From assembly GCA_017420455.1 (NCBI GenBank), contig JAFOJB010000462.1, positions 1 through 12,002 of the forward strand: a stretch of 12,002 nt of DNA, in the 5' to 3' direction. This DNA comes from Blautia sp. GTDB lineage: Bacteria > Bacillota > Clostridia > Lachnospirales > Lachnospiraceae. How positions within the stretch are numbered: position 1 is the stretch's first letter; each line of letters begins with the position of its first letter. Both the position numbers and the translations under genes were made by a program. Below the pieces are notes generated by a model that saw only the letters and a list, made by a program, of their open reading frames with translations, was not told where the DNA came from and ran no database searches. Positions 674 through 6,086 of the stretch are shown here, one piece after another.

Positions 674-2539
674 ATGCATAAAGAATTTTTAATGGGAAAC
701 GAAGCGATCGCTCTCGGCGCGCTTGCGGCAGGAGTGAATCTGGCGGCCGGTTATCCGGGTACGCCTTCCACGGAGGTTCTGGAAACCATCGCGAAGCGGA
801 ATCCGGGAAATGTATATGTGGAATGGTCGGTCAATGAGAAGGCGGCAATGGAAGTGGCTGCAGGAGCGGCCTATACCGGCGCGCGGGCTCTGGTGACCAT
901 GAAACAGGTCGGGCTCAACGTGGCATCGGATCCGCTGATGAGCCTGGAATATATCGGGGTAAAAGGAGGCATGGTGGTGCTGGTTTCAGATGACCCCGGC
1001 CCCATTTCCTCTCAGACGGAACAGGACACAAGGACCTTTGGGATGTTCTCCAAGGTTCCGGTCTTCGACCCCTGCTCCGTACAGGAAGCCTATGAAATGA
1101 TCCAGGAGGCCTTTGAATTTTCCGAAAAATACGGGACACCGGTCTTTTTCCGCCCTACCACCAGGATCGACCATGGGTATGAGGCGCTGGAGGTGAAGGA
1201 TCCGGAGGAATACCATGTCCATACGTACGAAGGCTTTGTAAAGGATGCCTCCCGCTGGGTGATCTTCCCAAGGCTGTCGGTGAAAAATCACGCCCTGATC
1301 GAAAAGCGGAACGCTCTCCTTTCCGATACCTTTTCGGATTATCCTGGAAACCGGATCCTTGCAGAGCAGGAAAAGGGCTGCAGAAAAGGAATCGCTTCCC
1401 ATGGAATCAGCTTCATGTATACTCTGGATTCCCTTCGCGGCAGAAATGCCAGGGTCTTAAAGGTGGCGACGCCGTTCCCGTTTCCGGAAAAGCTGGCGCT
1501 TTCCTTCCTGCAGGGCCTTGACGAGGTGCTTTGCATAGAGGAGCTGGATCCTGTCATCGAAAGAGCGCTCCTCCATATCTGTGGAAAGTACGGCCTGCAG
1601 GTAAAGATCCTCGGAAAGCTTACCGGGGATATCCCTCCGTCCGGAGAGAATACGATGGAGATCGTAAATAAGGCTTTGGGAGCCTTCCTGGGACAGGCAG
1701 AGGAGAAGCTGACTCCTGCGGCGAGGGAACTTCCCGAGCCTCCCGCGCTTCCGGTAAGGCCGCCGGTGCTGTGCGCAGGCTGTCCCCATCGCGCTTCCTT
1801 CTATGCGGTCAAACAGGCCATGAAGGGGAAGAAAACCATCTACTGCGGAGATATCGGCTGTTATACTCTGGGCAACGCGCAGCCGCTTGATATGTGCGAC
1901 ACCTGTCTGTGTATGGGAGCAGGCATCGGCATCGCCCAGGGAGTGGGGCATATGGAACCGGATACCAGATGCTTTGCCTTTGTAGGGGATTCCACCTTTT
2001 TTGCCTCCGGGATCACCGGGACAGTGAACGCCTTTTACAATCAGGCAGATATGACACTGGTGGTGCTGGACAATTCCACCACGGCCATGACCGGCCATCA
2101 GCCGCATCCGGGGACAGGCCGCACCGCAATGGGACAGGTGGTGGAAAAGGTCAGCATGGAAAAGGTACTGAAAGCCATCGGACTGAAGGTGGTAGAAACC
2201 GTGGATCCGCTGGACCTCAACGCTGCAGTGAAGACAGTGAAACGCGTGGCGGAGGAGCCGGGCGTGAAGGCTGTCATCTTCCGGTCGCCCTGCATCGCCA
2301 TATCCAGGCCTTCCGGTCACTCCGAGGTGGACCAGGAGAAATGTATCGGATGCGGGAAATGCATCCGCGAGCTGGGGTGTCCCGCTTTGAACCTGGCGTC
2401 TGACGGTAAGAAGACCCGGATCGACACCGCCCTTTGTACAGGCTGTACCTTATGTGAACAGATCTGTCCTGCAGGCGCGATCTCCGGAGGAAAAAAGAAT
2501 GATCTTCTGGCCGGGAAGGGAGGAGAAGGGCATGAATAA
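674..2539 (+). CDS. iorA: Indolepyruvate ferredoxin oxidoreductase, alpha subunit
   Basis: This is the large, catalytic subunit of the thiamine-diphosphate enzyme that decarboxylates aryl-pyruvates (indolepyruvate, phenylpyruvate, hydroxyphenylpyruvate) to arylacetyl-CoA and reduces ferredoxin, in the cytoplasm. It has 621 residues, normal for the family. The N-terminal domain has MGNEAIALGALAAGV and AGYPGTPSTEV, and NEKAAMEVAAGAA carries the conserved Glu that activates the cofactor. CAGCPHR (from residue 367), GDIGCYTLG (392) and GDS (438) with LDNSTTAMTG (D466, N467) make up the diphosphate/Mg2+ site. The C-terminus has two [4Fe-4S] motifs: C557/C560/C563 with C569-Pro, and C588/C591/C594 with C598-Pro. 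The start is supported by AAGGGG about 8 bases upstream. The stop overlaps the iorB start by 8 bases, which implies translational coupling. Substrate preference cannot be read from sequence. Confidence 0.95.
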   Translation: MHKEFLMGNEAIALGALAAGVNLAAGYPGTPSTEVLETIAKRNPGNVYVEWSVNEKAAMEVAAGAAYTGARALVTMKQVGLNVASDPLMSLEYIGVKGGMVVLVSDDPGPISSQTEQDTRTFGMFSKVPVFDPCSVQEAYEMIQEAFEFSEKYGTPVFFRPTTRIDHGYEALEVKDPEEYHVHTYEGFVKDASRWVIFPRLSVKNHALIEKRNALLSDTFSDYPGNRILAEQEKGCRKGIASHGISFMYTLDSLRGRNARVLKVATPFPFPEKLALSFLQGLDEVLCIEELDPVIERALLHICGKYGLQVKILGKLTGDIPPSGENTMEIVNKALGAFLGQAEEKLTPAARELPEPPALPVRPPVLCAGCPHRASFYAVKQAMKGKKTIYCGDIGCYTLGNAQPLDMCDTCLCMGAGIGIAQGVGHMEPDTRCFAFVGDSTFFASGITGTVNAFYNQADMTLVVLDNSTTAMTGHQPHPGTGRTAMGQVVEKVSMEKVLKAIGLKVVETVDPLDLNAAVKTVKRVAEEPGVKAVIFRSPCIAISRPSGHSEVDQEKCIGCGKCIRELGCPALNLASDGKKTRIDTALCTGCTLCEQICPAGAISGGKKNDLLAGKGGEGHE

Positions 2540-3119
2540 GAATATCATCCTTTGCGGCGTAGGCGGACAGGGAACCATCCTGGCTTCCCGGCTGATCGCT
2601 GCGGCAGCCATGAATTCCGGTATTCCGATCCTCACTGCGGAGACGATCGGCATGGCGCAGAGGGGCGGAAGCGTATTCAGCCATCTGCGTCTTGGAGAAG
2701 GCGTTCATTCCCCGCTGACCGCCAGAGGAGAGGCGGATCTGATCATCGGCTTTGAGCCGGGCGAGACGGTGCGGCAGCTTCCCTTTTTGAAGCCTGACGG
2801 CGCGGTGGTTGTGAATACAAGTCCGGTGATGCCGGTAAGCGCCATGATCGGCAAGGCCCCCTACGATGCGGGGGAGATGCTTTCCTATCTGAAGGAGCAT
2901 GTCAGGCATCTGACATGTGTGGACGGTGAAATGGCAGCGAAGGAGCTGGGCTCCTCCAGGGTCCTGAATGTGGTGCTCCTGGGCGCGGCACAGCAAAGCG
3001 GCGCTCTGGGCTTTACTTCGGAGGAAATGGAGCAGGCTCTGAAGGAAAAGGTGCCGGCCAGGTTCCTTGCGCTGAACCAGGCTGCCTTTGCTTTCGGTAA
3101 AAAAACGAAGAACAGCTGA
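2532..3119 (+). CDS. iorB: Indolepyruvate ferredoxin oxidoreductase, beta subunit
   Basis: This is the small (gamma-domain) subunit that pairs with IorA. The protein has 195 residues from the ATG at 2532, the typical size. The motif GVGGQGT lies at residues 9-15, followed by ETIGMAQRGGSVFSHLR, both characteristic of the IorB/PorG-like domain that belongs to 2-oxoacid:ferredoxin oxidoreductases. The open frame runs upstream to 2454, but that part overlaps iorA codons. The ATG at 2532 is preceded by a purine-rich GGGAGGAGAAGGG site and gives the correct family N-terminus, MNKNIILCGVGGQG. It overlaps the iorA stop by 8 bases, a common arrangement for this subunit pair. The next gene, the CoA ligase, follows after 32 bases with its own ribosome site. 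Confidence 0.94.
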   Translation: MNKNIILCGVGGQGTILASRLIAAAAMNSGIPILTAETIGMAQRGGSVFSHLRLGEGVHSPLTARGEADLIIGFEPGETVRQLPFLKPDGAVVVNTSPVMPVSAMIGKAPYDAGEMLSYLKEHVRHLTCVDGEMAAKELGSSRVLNVVLLGAAQQSGALGFTSEEMEQALKEKVPARFLALNQAAFAFGKKTKNS

Positions 3120-3151: not shown

Positions 3152-4387
3152 ATGCAGATCAATGAAAAACAGCTTTCCCAGGTAAATCATCAGATCGGGC
3201 GGCTTCTGGCCGCAGATAATTTCTATGGCCGCAGGCTGAAGGAGGCGGGAGTTTCCCATGTGGATACAGTGGAGGAGTTCCTGAATCTTCCTTTTTCCGA
3301 GAAGCAGGATCTTCGGGATGCGTACCCGCTTGGTCTGATGACCTGCAGGGAGGAAGAGATCGTCAGGATCCATTCTTCCTCCGGAACTACAGGCCTTCCT
3401 GTGATCATTCCCTATACGGCAAAGGATGTGGATGACTGGGGAGAAATGTTCAAACGCTGCTATATGTTCGCGGGCATTACAGAAAAGGACCGGATCCAGA
3501 TCACGCCGGGATATGGGCTCTGGACGGCCGGAATCGGTTTTCAGAACGGCTGTGAGAAGCTTGGAGCCATGGCCATTCCCATGGGACCCGGAAATACGGA
3601 GAAGCAGCTGCAGATGATGATGGACCTTCGGAGCACCGTAATCTGCGCAACCTCCTCCTATGCCCTGCTGCTGGCGGAGGAGATTGAAAAGAGAGGGATC
3701 CGGGACAGGATTCACCTGAAAAAGGGAGTCATCGGAAGTGAGCGCTGGGGAGAAAAAATGCGGAAGCGCATTTCTTCAGAACTGGGCATCGAGCTGTATG
3801 ACATTTACGGACTTACGGAGATTTACGGACCCGGCATCGGCATCAACTGTAAATATGACCAGGGCATGCATTATTGGGACGATTATATCTATCTGGAGAT
3901 CATTGATCCGGAAACCGGGAAAAACGTTCCGGACGGAGAATGGGGCGAGATCGTCATTACGACTCTTGTCAAAGAAGGGGCTCCCCTGATCCGTTTCCGT
4001 ACCCACGATCTTTCCAGGATCATTCCGGGAGAGTGTCCCTGCGGAAGCCATTTCCCGAGGATCGATGTGATTTCCGGCAGAAGTGACGATATGGTGAAGA
4101 TCAAGGGCGTGAATTTCTTCCCGAGACAGATCGAAGAGATCCTCGCTTTGTTCCCCGAGCTTTCCAGCGAATATCAGATCCGTATTTCTCATCTGGACGG
4201 CAAGGATACCATGCGTATTTATGTAGAAGCCAGCGGTTCCTACGACTTTAAGAGCCTGCAGAAATCTGTGGCCGATGCCGTGAAATCCAGGATCGGCTTT
4301 ACGCCTCTGGTCTATGTGGTGGAGCTGGGCTTCCTGCCGCGGAGCGAGAAGAAGACGAAGAGGGTTATCGACGAGCGGTTTGCGTAA
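3152..4387 (+). CDS. Phenylacetate-CoA ligase (PaaK-like adenylate-forming enzyme)
   Basis: This adenylate-forming enzyme couples arylacetate, CoA and ATP to arylacetyl-CoA, AMP and pyrophosphate. The 411 residues are slightly shorter than usual for PaaK (about 430-440). The phosphate-binding loop HSSSGTTGLP starts at H74. YGLTE at residues 219-223 is the adenine/Mg motif, and RFRTHD ends with the ribose-binding Asp286. The C-terminal domain has CPCG, then GRSDDMVKIKGVNFFPRQIEE, a PaaK signature, and a basic end KKTKRVIDERF that should hold the catalytic Lys. AGAGGAGAT precedes the ATG. Its place directly after iorAB links it to arylacetyl-CoA. Whether it activates scavenged arylacetate or runs in the other direction is not decided by sequence. 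Related PaaK-like enzymes accept other aromatic acids, so no specific symbol is given. Confidence 0.9.
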   Translation: MQINEKQLSQVNHQIGRLLAADNFYGRRLKEAGVSHVDTVEEFLNLPFSEKQDLRDAYPLGLMTCREEEIVRIHSSSGTTGLPVIIPYTAKDVDDWGEMFKRCYMFAGITEKDRIQITPGYGLWTAGIGFQNGCEKLGAMAIPMGPGNTEKQLQMMMDLRSTVICATSSYALLLAEEIEKRGIRDRIHLKKGVIGSERWGEKMRKRISSELGIELYDIYGLTEIYGPGIGINCKYDQGMHYWDDYIYLEIIDPETGKNVPDGEWGEIVITTLVKEGAPLIRFRTHDLSRIIPGECPCGSHFPRIDVISGRSDDMVKIKGVNFFPRQIEEILALFPELSSEYQIRISHLDGKDTMRIYVEASGSYDFKSLQKSVADAVKSRIGFTPLVYVVELGFLPRSEKKTKRVIDERFA

Positions 4388-4403
4388 ATAAGGGGACCGA
4401 AGG

Positions 4404-5132
4404 ATGGATATTGTACAGTTTCAGAGAGCTCTGGAGGACGTTCTTGCCGCCGCGAAGGAGAATGGAAACAGGATTTCCGCGGAGGAGCTCGGAAATGCTT
4501 TTGCGGGGATGGACCTTGACCGGGAGAAGATGCTCCGGGTGCTGGGGTACCTGCAGGGAAAAGGAATAACTGTTGCTGACGAAGAGAACGCCGGAAGATC
4601 CTTCTGTACGGACGGGGAGATCGTCTTCCCGGGCACCAGGAAGGAGCTTTCGCAGGAGGAGCAGGAGTATCTTAAAGGCCTGTTCTCCGGCTTTTCGGAG
4701 GAGAGAGCAAAAGACGGGAAAGAAAAACTCCGGAACCGGTATATGAGAAGGGCGGCGTTCCTTGCGGCGAAATGGCACTGTGAGGAGCTGCTCCTTGCGG
4801 ACCTGATCCAGGAGGCGCAGATGGCTCTGCTTATCGCAATGCAGGAGGATGTTCCGGAGGGAGAACAAACCGGAGAATGGTACGAACAGAAGATCCTGGA
4901 GGGAATCCGGAGCGCCATACAGAACCAGGTGGACCAGAAATACCACGATGACGTGCTGGTGGAGAAGGTGACGAACCTGGAGAAGGCCATCCGGGAACTC
5001 ACAGATGAGGAGGATGGAGAGGTGCACTTTACCGCCGCGGAGCTGGCGGTGATCCTGGATATGAAGGAAGAGGAGCTGCAGGATATCCTGCGGCTGACCG
5101 GGGACGATACAGAGAATGATCAGGGCAGGTAA
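4404..5132 (+). CDS. Sigma-70-like protein lacking region 4 (degenerate sigma factor)
   Basis: The product has 242 residues and no exact function that I recognise, but it aligns by eye with a primary sigma factor. Residues 5-60 resemble region 1.1 (helix-rich, ending DREKMLRVLGYLQGKGITVADEE). Residues 82-147 resemble regions 1.2-2.2: LSQEEQEYL, then RNRYMRRAAFLAAKWH and LLADLIQEAQMALLIAM, the core-binding signature. Residues 159-180 (WYEQKILEGIRSAIQNQVDQ) fall where regions 2.3-2.4 read YATWWIRQAI in true sigma factors. Residues 183-234 resemble region 3 (VEKVTNLEKAIREL, then FTAAELAVILDMKEEELQDIL). No region 4 helix-turn-helix follows. The aromatic and basic residues used for melting the -10 element are mostly missing. 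It starts 16 bases after the ligase stop with GGGGACCGAAGG upstream, so it sits in the ior operon. It might bind RNA polymerase or act as a decoy; this is inference. Confidence 0.7.
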   Translation: MDIVQFQRALEDVLAAAKENGNRISAEELGNAFAGMDLDREKMLRVLGYLQGKGITVADEENAGRSFCTDGEIVFPGTRKELSQEEQEYLKGLFSGFSEERAKDGKEKLRNRYMRRAAFLAAKWHCEELLLADLIQEAQMALLIAMQEDVPEGEQTGEWYEQKILEGIRSAIQNQVDQKYHDDVLVEKVTNLEKAIRELTDEEDGEVHFTAAELAVILDMKEEELQDILRLTGDDTENDQGR

Positions 5133-5245
5133 GGGCTTGAATAACGCCGCCTGAACAGCAGCCGAAAATACATCAGTCCCCGGCCGGTGAGATCGTGAAC
5201 TGCAGCCGGAGGTTAGAGGCATCTAATGCTGATTCCAGAGAATCC

Positions 5246-5274
5246 TTGCCTATCCAGGAAAAATATGATATGAT
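5246..5274 (+). promoter_or_regulatory. Promoter of the DtxR-family gene, with overlapping AT-rich inverted repeat
   Basis: TTGCCT (5246-5251), a 17-base spacer and TATGAT (5269-5274) form a good SigA-type promoter, giving a 5' leader of about 75 bases before the ATG at 5357. AAATAT (5261-5266) and ATATTT (5276-5281) form a 6-bp inverted repeat spaced by 9 bases across the -10 box. A 21-bp dyad in this place could be an operator for autoregulation by the metal regulator. The promoter is fairly convincing; the operator is speculative. Confidence 0.6.
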
Positions 5275-5356
5275 AATATTTGTCTGCAGCCGGGAAAGAG
5301 ACATCACAGTTCTGGTAGTGAACGAATATTGCGAATGGGGAAAAATGGGAGGTTTT

Positions 5357-5752
5357 ATGGTAATTCATGAATCTGCGGAGGATTATCTGGAGGCGATACT
5401 GAGACTGTCCTTTACGGAGAAGGAAGTGCGGTCTGTAGATATTGCGGCTATGCTCAATGTATCGAAACCGAGTGTCAGCCATGCTATGAAGCTGCTCAGG
5501 GAAGATGAGTACATTGCCATGGACAGGTATGGCACCATCACTCTTCTGGAGAAGGGAGCTGTGATTGCCAGAAGGATCTATGAGAGGCATGTAGTTCTGT
5601 CACATATGCTGGAATGTCTTGGAGTGGATCCGGAGATTGCGCTTCAGGATGCCTGCAAGATGGAACACGATCTCAGCGATGAAAGCTTTGAGGCGATCAA
5701 GGCCTATATGCATGGCAAAGAGGGCACTGCGCCGGAAAAAGAGAAAAAGTGA
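5357..5752 (+). CDS. DtxR/MntR-family metal-dependent transcriptional regulator
   Basis: This is a dimeric metal-sensing repressor of 131 residues. The N-terminal winged helix-turn-helix covers residues 1-65 (VRSVDIAAMLNVSKPSVSHAMKLL is the DNA-reading part). The dimerisation and metal domain covers about 70-120. There is no C-terminal SH3-like domain, so the length fits the MntR branch. Metal-ligand positions are D9 and E12 (SAEDYLEA), H78 (ERHVVL) and C100/E103/H104 (DACKMEHDLS). The ATG at 5357 is chosen over upstream in-frame starts because GGGAGG (5347-5352) precedes it at good spacing and the family N-terminus begins here. It has its own promoter. No metal transporter is next to it, so its targets are unknown. 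Its last codons and stop lie inside the first unit of a tandem repeat array. Symbol left blank because Fe versus Mn specificity is unclear. Confidence 0.9.
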   Translation: MVIHESAEDYLEAILRLSFTEKEVRSVDIAAMLNVSKPSVSHAMKLLREDEYIAMDRYGTITLLEKGAVIARRIYERHVVLSHMLECLGVDPEIALQDACKMEHDLSDESFEAIKAYMHGKEGTAPEKEKK

Positions 5753-5853
5753 TCTCGTGAAAAAAGTGATCTCGCGAAAAAGTGATCCTGTGAAAAGTGA
5801 TCCTGTGAAAAAGTGATCCTGTGAAAAAGTGATCCTGCAAAAAAAGTGATTCC
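5741..5853. repeat. A-rich tandem array, about seven units of 15-17 bp
   Basis: Seven consecutive units fit the pattern GTGAAAAAGTGATCCT: 5741-5756, 5757-5773, 5774-5789, 5790-5804, 5805-5820, 5821-5836 and 5837-5853. Units 5 and 6 are identical. Length differences come almost only from the number of A residues in the A-run (4 to 7). The outer units diverge (CTC instead of CCT; GAG or GCA at the start). The stop codon TGA of the regulator gene (5750-5752) lies in unit 1. Because unit length is not a multiple of three, the array is not a coding repeat. Confidence 0.9.
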
Positions 5854-5861
5854 GTAAAAAC

Positions 5862-5905
5862 AAAGCTGTGAAAAAACGGTTCTGCCGTTTTTTCACAGCT
5901 TTTTT
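5862..5905. terminator. Strong bidirectional intrinsic terminator
   Basis: A perfect 18-bp inverted repeat, AAAGCTGTGAAAAAACGG (5862-5879) and its complement (5885-5902), surrounds a 5-base loop. On the plus strand the stem runs into TTTTTT (5900-5905); on the minus strand it runs into CTTTGTTTTT. It therefore fits a terminator for the regulator gene and for the converging EamA-type gene. The arm contains TGTGAAAAAA, very close to the core of the adjacent tandem array. Confidence 0.9.
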
Positions 5906-5994: not shown

Positions 5995-6063
5995 CCGGAA
6001 CCACAGGCTGCGTCATCCCGGAACCACAGGCGGCACCATACCGGAACGGCAGGCTGCAGCCAT
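5995..6063. repeat. Three 23-bp GC-rich tandem repeats
   Basis: Three adjacent units of exactly 23 bp begin with CCGGAAC: 5995-6017, 6018-6040 and 6041-6063. Units 1 and 2 share CCGGAACCACAGGC; unit 3 has CCGGAACGGCAGGCTGC. The array is in the 180-base gap between the bidirectional terminator and the stop of the permease gene. A period of 23 makes a coding repeat unlikely. The rest of the gap (5906-5994 and 6064-6086) shows no clear feature. Confidence 0.85.
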
Positions 6064-6086
6064 ATCTGGTTCTGCAGGCAGCGGCG

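Follow-up and report, generated by a model that had tools for sequence, protein, structure and literature searches.

What a protein that starts like a primary sigma factor and stops before the domain that recognizes the -35 element does for its cell is the question raised by one gene of Blautia sp. (Lachnospiraceae), together with whether the gene's position at the end of an iorAB-CoA ligase operon accounts for it. The gene lies in a 12,002-nucleotide stretch of DNA, referred to here as the window, in which its ORF (4404-5132, forward strand) is intact and runs exactly as a sequence-only reading of the window had placed it. The 242-residue product has a calculated pI of approximately 4.5 and is given SigL-type as a working name only. 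With a probability of roughly 0.55, it would modulate RNA polymerase without reading promoters, with core binding predicted from the residues it retains.

The features of the window are collected in Table 1. By their domains, the genes follow the order rubrerythrin, iorA, iorB, paaK, truncated RpoD paralogue, DtxR-type repressor, and EamA; the names iorA, iorB, and phenylacetate-CoA ligase (paaK) are those we assume for these genes, and the genes past EamA are presumably argG, argC, and argJ. The stop codon of paaK precedes the ATG of the truncated paralogue by 16 nt. An antisense ORF of 285 aa (4365-5222, reverse strand), with no Pfam match, covers the whole gene and exceeds its length, so that a longest-ORF tiling misses the true gene. 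A tandem repeat of a 16-base unit in 6.7 copies (5743-5850) and a strong, two-way terminator-like hairpin of 18-19 pairs (5862-5902) are located between the DtxR-type gene and EamA, and a further tandem repeat with a period of 23 occupies 5995-6064. A promoter-like site with TG before its -10 element was seen upstream of the DtxR-type gene (5246-5274, forward strand); the frequency of promoter-like sites in the region is not above that in shuffles.

Table 1. Features of the window discussed in the text (gene names as assumed by the authors)
Feature	Position	Strand	Basis
IorA-like (POR_N, TPP_enzyme_C, Fer4); iorA	674..2539	+	domains
IorB-like (POR); iorB	2529..3119	+	domain
Phenylacetate-CoA-ligase-like AMP-binding enzyme; paaK	3152..4387	+	domains
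Possible ribosome-binding stretch, purine-rich, before ATG	4391..4403	+	sequence
Truncated RpoD paralogue, 242 aa	4404..5132	+	homology to RpoD; purifying selection among homologues
Region 1.1-like domain, residues 7-62	4422..4589	+	Pfam PF03979
Regions 2.1-2.2, residues 98-148	4695..4847	+	alignment and RpoD profile; model helices 105-123, 131-147
DLIQEAQ, residues 133-139, equivalent to E. coli sigma70 D403-N409	4800..4820	+	alignment
Regions 2.3-2.4, residues 149-182, promoter-melting residues replaced	4848..4949	+	alignment
Regions 3.0-3.1, residues 183-233; protein end just beyond	4950..5102	+	alignment, profile
DtxR/IdeR-type iron-dependent repressor	5354..5752	+	domains

The sequence-only reading had recognized, by eye, regions 1.1, 2, and 3 of a primary sigma factor in that order, followed by a stop, and had named a profile search as the way to check this. 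Pfam, NCBIfam, and a profile of 21 RpoD sequences of Clostridia bear out the arrangement. The region 1.1 model PF03979 matches with 26.1 bits (cut-off 22.5; E 8.6e-6); NCBIfam RpoD-type models cover residues 82-233 with a best E of 3.3e-12, at scores far under their full-length cut-offs; and the 21-RpoD profile scores 47.8 bits over residues 5-64 and 99-233, which form two collinear blocks. Chance similarity was ruled out by shuffling, since among 1000 shuffles run against the same profile, of which 961 were reported, the top score was 10.4 bits. Similarly, a profile of 32 diverse members of the family matches C. difficile SigA at 1e-36, spanning region 1.1 to the end of region 3.1. The Pfam models for regions 2 and 3 have no match to the window protein at E 0.01. 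Among 87 aligned members, in which the window's own genus is heavily represented, the models for regions 1.1, 2, 3, and 4 match 76, 60, 24, and 4 proteins at the same threshold, respectively, the best of the four region 4 matches having an E of 0.0024. Sigma-70 family homology is thus given by the NCBIfam matches in the window together with the 60 Sigma70_r2 matches among its relatives, and on these profiles the product is homologous to RpoD, with regions 1.1, 2, and 3.1 in order.

The protein stops after region 3.1, without the region 3.2 finger or region 4, and the -35 recognition domain that had been reported missing is indeed absent from every frame downstream of the gene, which shows that the gene is not a frameshifted rpoD. 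An interrupted rpoD is also ruled out by the relatives, which stop at about the same place: 4-41 residues (median 8) are left past the column of E. coli residue 500 in 109 members vs 111-118 in RpoD. With group 1 sigma factors the protein shares region 1.1; the features of that group in regions 2.3-2.4, the finger, and region 4 are not found in it. It is not the primary sigma factor of its cell either, because its own genome encodes a distinct, normal RpoD in a 381-aa frame (G000:C136).

The residues kept and lost were compared in a set of 26 members, one per genus, aligned with the 21 RpoD sequences (26 of the 29 best-match loci L002-L030, without L006, L025, and L026), and in a broader sample of 109 distinct members, distinguished by their last 110 residues. 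In E. coli sigma70, we take D403, Q406, E407, N409, and position 413 to be core-contact positions, and Y430, W433, W434, Q437, T440, R436, E458, and others to be DNA positions. The beta' clamp contacts D403, Q406, E407, and N409 are present in 26, 23, 26, and 25 of the 26 members and in 109, 90, 108, and 99 of the 109, respectively; the window protein itself has Q at the N409 position, where most relatives keep N. Of the promoter-melting and -10 positions, W433 and W434 are found in no member of either set, T440 in none of the 26 and two of the 109, Y430 in three and seven, and Q437 in three and nine. The YATWWIRQAI segment of RpoD, which had been described as replaced, has WYEQKILEGI as its aligned counterpart in the window protein, in an alignment that is gapped inside region 2.3 and in which single residues there are less certain. 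The loss of W433 and W434 is independent of the alignment, as two adjacent tryptophans occur nowhere in any of the 109 proteins.

The same division was found over longer stretches. Between positions 378 and 500, 65 positions are invariant in RpoD, and those kept (present in at least 80% of the 26 members) number 2/14 in region 2.1, 6/12 in 2.2, 0/11 in 2.3, 0/14 in 2.4, 1/9 in 3.0, and 1/5 in 3.1. The 6/12 of region 2.2 vs 0/25 of regions 2.3-2.4 gives a Fisher p of 4e-4 with positions treated as independent, a contrast that may be inflated because the members were collected by similarity, which favours conserved stretches; a 57-member set again gave 6/12 and 0/25. Identity to the RpoD consensus is 48.8% in the 2.2 helix and 4.3% in region 2.3. 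The mean charge of the stretch 419-460 is +3.3 in RpoD and -3.6 in the 26 members, with -6 in the window protein. The division is not complete: the region 2.1-2.2 stretch has also turned acidic (mean +2.9 in RpoD to -2.9 in the 26 members), and position 413, L402, and K414 on the core side are kept in none of the 26, so the clamp interface is not intact. On the DNA side, R436 and E458 are partly retained (16/26 and 13/26). In these alignments, the family keeps the clamp-contact residues of region 2.2, region 3.1, and mostly region 1.1; the residues that melt and recognize the -10 element are lost, as is the basic DNA face, and sigma finger and region 4 are absent. According to one review, sigma2 docks on RNA polymerase mainly by contact of the 2.2 helix with the beta' coiled coil and reaches the -10 element via regions 2.3-2.4 (PMC4598750).

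A structure model of the 242-aa protein has a mean pLDDT of 87.2, and its sigma domain 2 overlays 92 residues of 3ugo_A at 2.9 A; all 50 of the 50 structure matches listed are sigma or sigma-containing RNA polymerase entries. The overlay on sigma domains 2 and 3 that the sequence-only reading had named as decisive was thus obtained for domain 2; overlays extending to residue 233 are at approximately 10 A or worse, leaving the arrangement of region 3 unconfirmed by the model. A phage origin was considered and is unsupported, as a Foldseek search of viral models at E 0.001 found nothing.

The truncated RpoD paralogue is lineage-specific and fast-evolving. Searching with the protein gave 377 homologues at E <= 1e-3; among the 120 of these matches that were listed, lengths are 228-277 aa and the three that carry an informative name are annotated as hypothetical, in Blautia or Eubacteriales. 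When the profile built on 32 diverse members (A2) was run on 250 Lachnospiraceae genomes, one per genus label, at least 161 of the 250 genera had a match at E <= 1e-20 in a frame of at most 340 aa, a count to which sigma factors of other kinds may contribute through frames of 300-340 aa; by hand count, at least 140 have frames of at most 300 aa. The 161 are made up of 87/89 in a first run and 28/66, 29/50, and 17/45 in subsets run again, all in stop-to-stop frames, and exclude two high-scoring genomes with frames of 358 and 359 aa (G110 and G007), one match at a contig edge (G109), and one whose E slightly exceeds the limit (G068). Within the genus of the window, a match at E <= 1e-12 occurs in 20 of 25 genomes, counting its own. 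Beyond the family, 62 genomes of other families (16 from the same order and 46 from the same class) yielded 59 matches at E <= 1e-18, spread over 58 genomes; 58 of the matches are in RpoD-sized frames of at least 359 aa and the remaining one is in a 312-aa frame at 1.3e-19. Furthermore, when 291 genomes from across the class were sampled at E <= 1e-40, short frames were found in six genomes, all from the gene's own family. A limited literature search found no description of a truncated RpoD family, and the family may be undescribed so far.

The dN/dS ratio is 0.03-0.17 (median 0.10) in the 62 usable of 70 overlapping pairs, in which some loci are one place taken twice, and values of approximately 0.1 indicate that the protein is maintained. 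Identity to relatives within the genus is 38-51%, vs approximately 90% for ArgG, which speaks against a role like that of a typical core subunit. A decaying, functionless relic of an rpoD duplication would fit such fast divergence; it is nevertheless barely credible given the dN/dS, the spread over at least 161 of 250 genera, and the retention of D403 and E407 in 109 and 108 of the 109 members.

In a tree of 82 rows, the 16 RpoD rows are split off by a branch with support of 100/100, and the truncated members have longer branches than RpoD. The fork beside RpoD lacks resolution, and its rows include three members linked to dgt, which a branch separates from the rest with support of only 78/71. 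In these three genera, the gene lies directly upstream of dgt, at 24 nt (L129), 12 nt (L175), and 15 nt (L176); dnaG and rpoD come next after dgt in L129 and L175, with the domains of the L129 genes confirmed, and are located approximately 12 kb further on the same strand in L176. This adjacency and the tree position suggest, without proving, an origin by duplication beside rpoD. A fuller scenario, that a Lachnospiraceae ancestor duplicated the 5' two thirds of rpoD, first beside the rpoD operon, and that the copy became a decoy sigma competing with RpoD for core and setting global transcription capacity in a dominant gut-bacterial group, is held tentatively, at somewhat less than even odds.

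Several variants were observed along the way. Two RpoD-like genes are close together in L175 (G162), with the truncated gene between them, and in G067:C2. A short subtype of 170-209 aa (L177-L192, e.g., L188:5386-5970), often near a LysR-like gene and PurL, seemingly misses region 1.1, as do the 16 tree members under 212 aa, a form defined by length whose single origin is poorly supported in the tree, at 41/31. In addition, L014, L022, and L026 carry His-rich tails that are possibly metal-binding.

The place of the gene in the window had been read as fixed and as tying the protein to aromatic amino-acid metabolism. A modulator dedicated to the iorAB-CoA ligase pathway would agree with the 16-nt distance from paaK in this genome, yet around the 108 further distinct members, of which 84 come with 4 kb or more of upstream sequence, iorA, iorB, paaK, and rubrerythrin were found in no case. 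The tie is contradicted as a general rule and this explanation is extremely unlikely, although for expression in this species the link could still hold. DtxR-type genes are near 21 of the 108, and the other neighbours vary by lineage: in some, a GatB-like gene lies upstream of the gene and an FtsH-like one downstream, both named by sequence inspection; others have an amidase and CNNM, an S41 peptidase close to rho, PurL and a helicase, or an M16C peptidase beside a 306-aa gene without Pfam match. When neighbourhoods were compared across lineages, no partner gene common to all of them was seen beside the members.

Three further explanations assign the protein other partners or another task. It could be a sigma mimic that titrates an anti-sigma factor, the retained 2.2 helix serving as bait for an anti-sigma that covers this helix. 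A degenerate sigma domain that no longer reads promoters follows the logic of PhyR, a response regulator with an ECF-type sigma-like domain that titrates NepR. According to the review cited above, the fourth helix of the anti-sigmas RseA and ChrR blocks the contact of region 2.2 with the beta' coiled coil (PMC4598750). The mimic is nonetheless unlikely, as the protein has no receiver-domain match, no partner gene shared across lineages was seen among its neighbours, and its conserved residues are those with which RpoD contacts core. That the protein is one half of a split sigma whose region 4 comes from a second protein is distinctly unlikely. The model for it is SigO-RsoA of B. subtilis, where, according to PMC10028694, SigO supplies sigma4 and RsoA sigma2 and both are required; a table in PMC10141391 gives the pair as 22.54 and 9.00 with the domains 'sigma2, sigma3; sigma4', an order that conflicts with it. 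A title cited in PMC10028694 states that RsoA binds SigO with its 2.3-like segment, which means that the protein need not have lost its function along with the DNA residues in region 2.3, and the window's own genome contains an extra region-4-type match, PF04545, over the cut-off (26.1 bits, in a 121-aa frame with an internal stop; G000:C380:3520-3639, reverse strand). However, no partner gene recurs alongside across lineages, and the -10 reading residues of region 2.4, which a split sigma would need, are lost.

A true alternative sigma factor that starts transcription at unusual promoters without region 4 would account for the kept order of regions 1.1-3.1 and the sigma domain 2 fold; it is very unlikely in view of the loss of W433, W434, Q437, T440, and the basic DNA face and the absence of finger and region 4. 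The part that grips the polymerase is kept and the parts that read DNA are lost, so that the protein probably regulates the polymerase itself. This agrees with the earlier suggestion of a modulator without normal promoter recognition as far as the residues go, and whether it acts as decoy or other modulator is our inference.

As a core-binding modulator, the truncated paralogue would bind core RNA polymerase via region 2.2 and would compete with or replace RpoD on it, either as a decoy ahead of initiation or on polymerase that is already elongating. The result would be a tuning of the polymerase supply for promoters rather than a choice of promoters. A further contribution could come from region 1.1, an acidic DNA-mimic domain in RpoD, if it sits in the DNA channel. 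The gene was counted in nearly two thirds of the family's sampled genera, yet the few homologues with a name among the matches listed are hypothetical proteins. If core binding is true, the family would be a sigma-derived protein counterpart of RNA polymerase-sequestering factors and would alter the understanding of promoter strength and of competition among sigma factors in a group that is a major part of the human gut microbiota.

Among known systems, MzaA, the sigma-like protein of the MZA anti-phage system, cross-matches with the family in sigma regions 2-3; its models are 683 and 726 positions long, and true RpoD matches it better (8.5e-69) than family members do (best 5.7e-12). Membership in MZA was ruled out on this ground and because PADLOC models do not match the window protein at E 0.01. 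The sigma-like domain of PhyR is also a sigma fold that has ceased to read promoters, but PhyR is a response regulator whose sigma-like domain is of ECF type, whereas the truncated paralogue is a relative of RpoD without receiver-domain match. RsoA is likewise a separate sigma2 protein (PMC10028694); it needs SigO, whereas the truncated paralogue has no partner gene found beside it and has regions 1.1 and 3.1 of its own. From RpoD/SigA of group 1, the family differs by its missing regions 3.2 and 4, its lost promoter residues and basic face, and its longer branches, and it resembles them in the collinear regions 1.1, 2.1-2.2, and 3.1, in the fold of sigma domain 2, and in D403, Q406, E407, and N409, which are largely kept.
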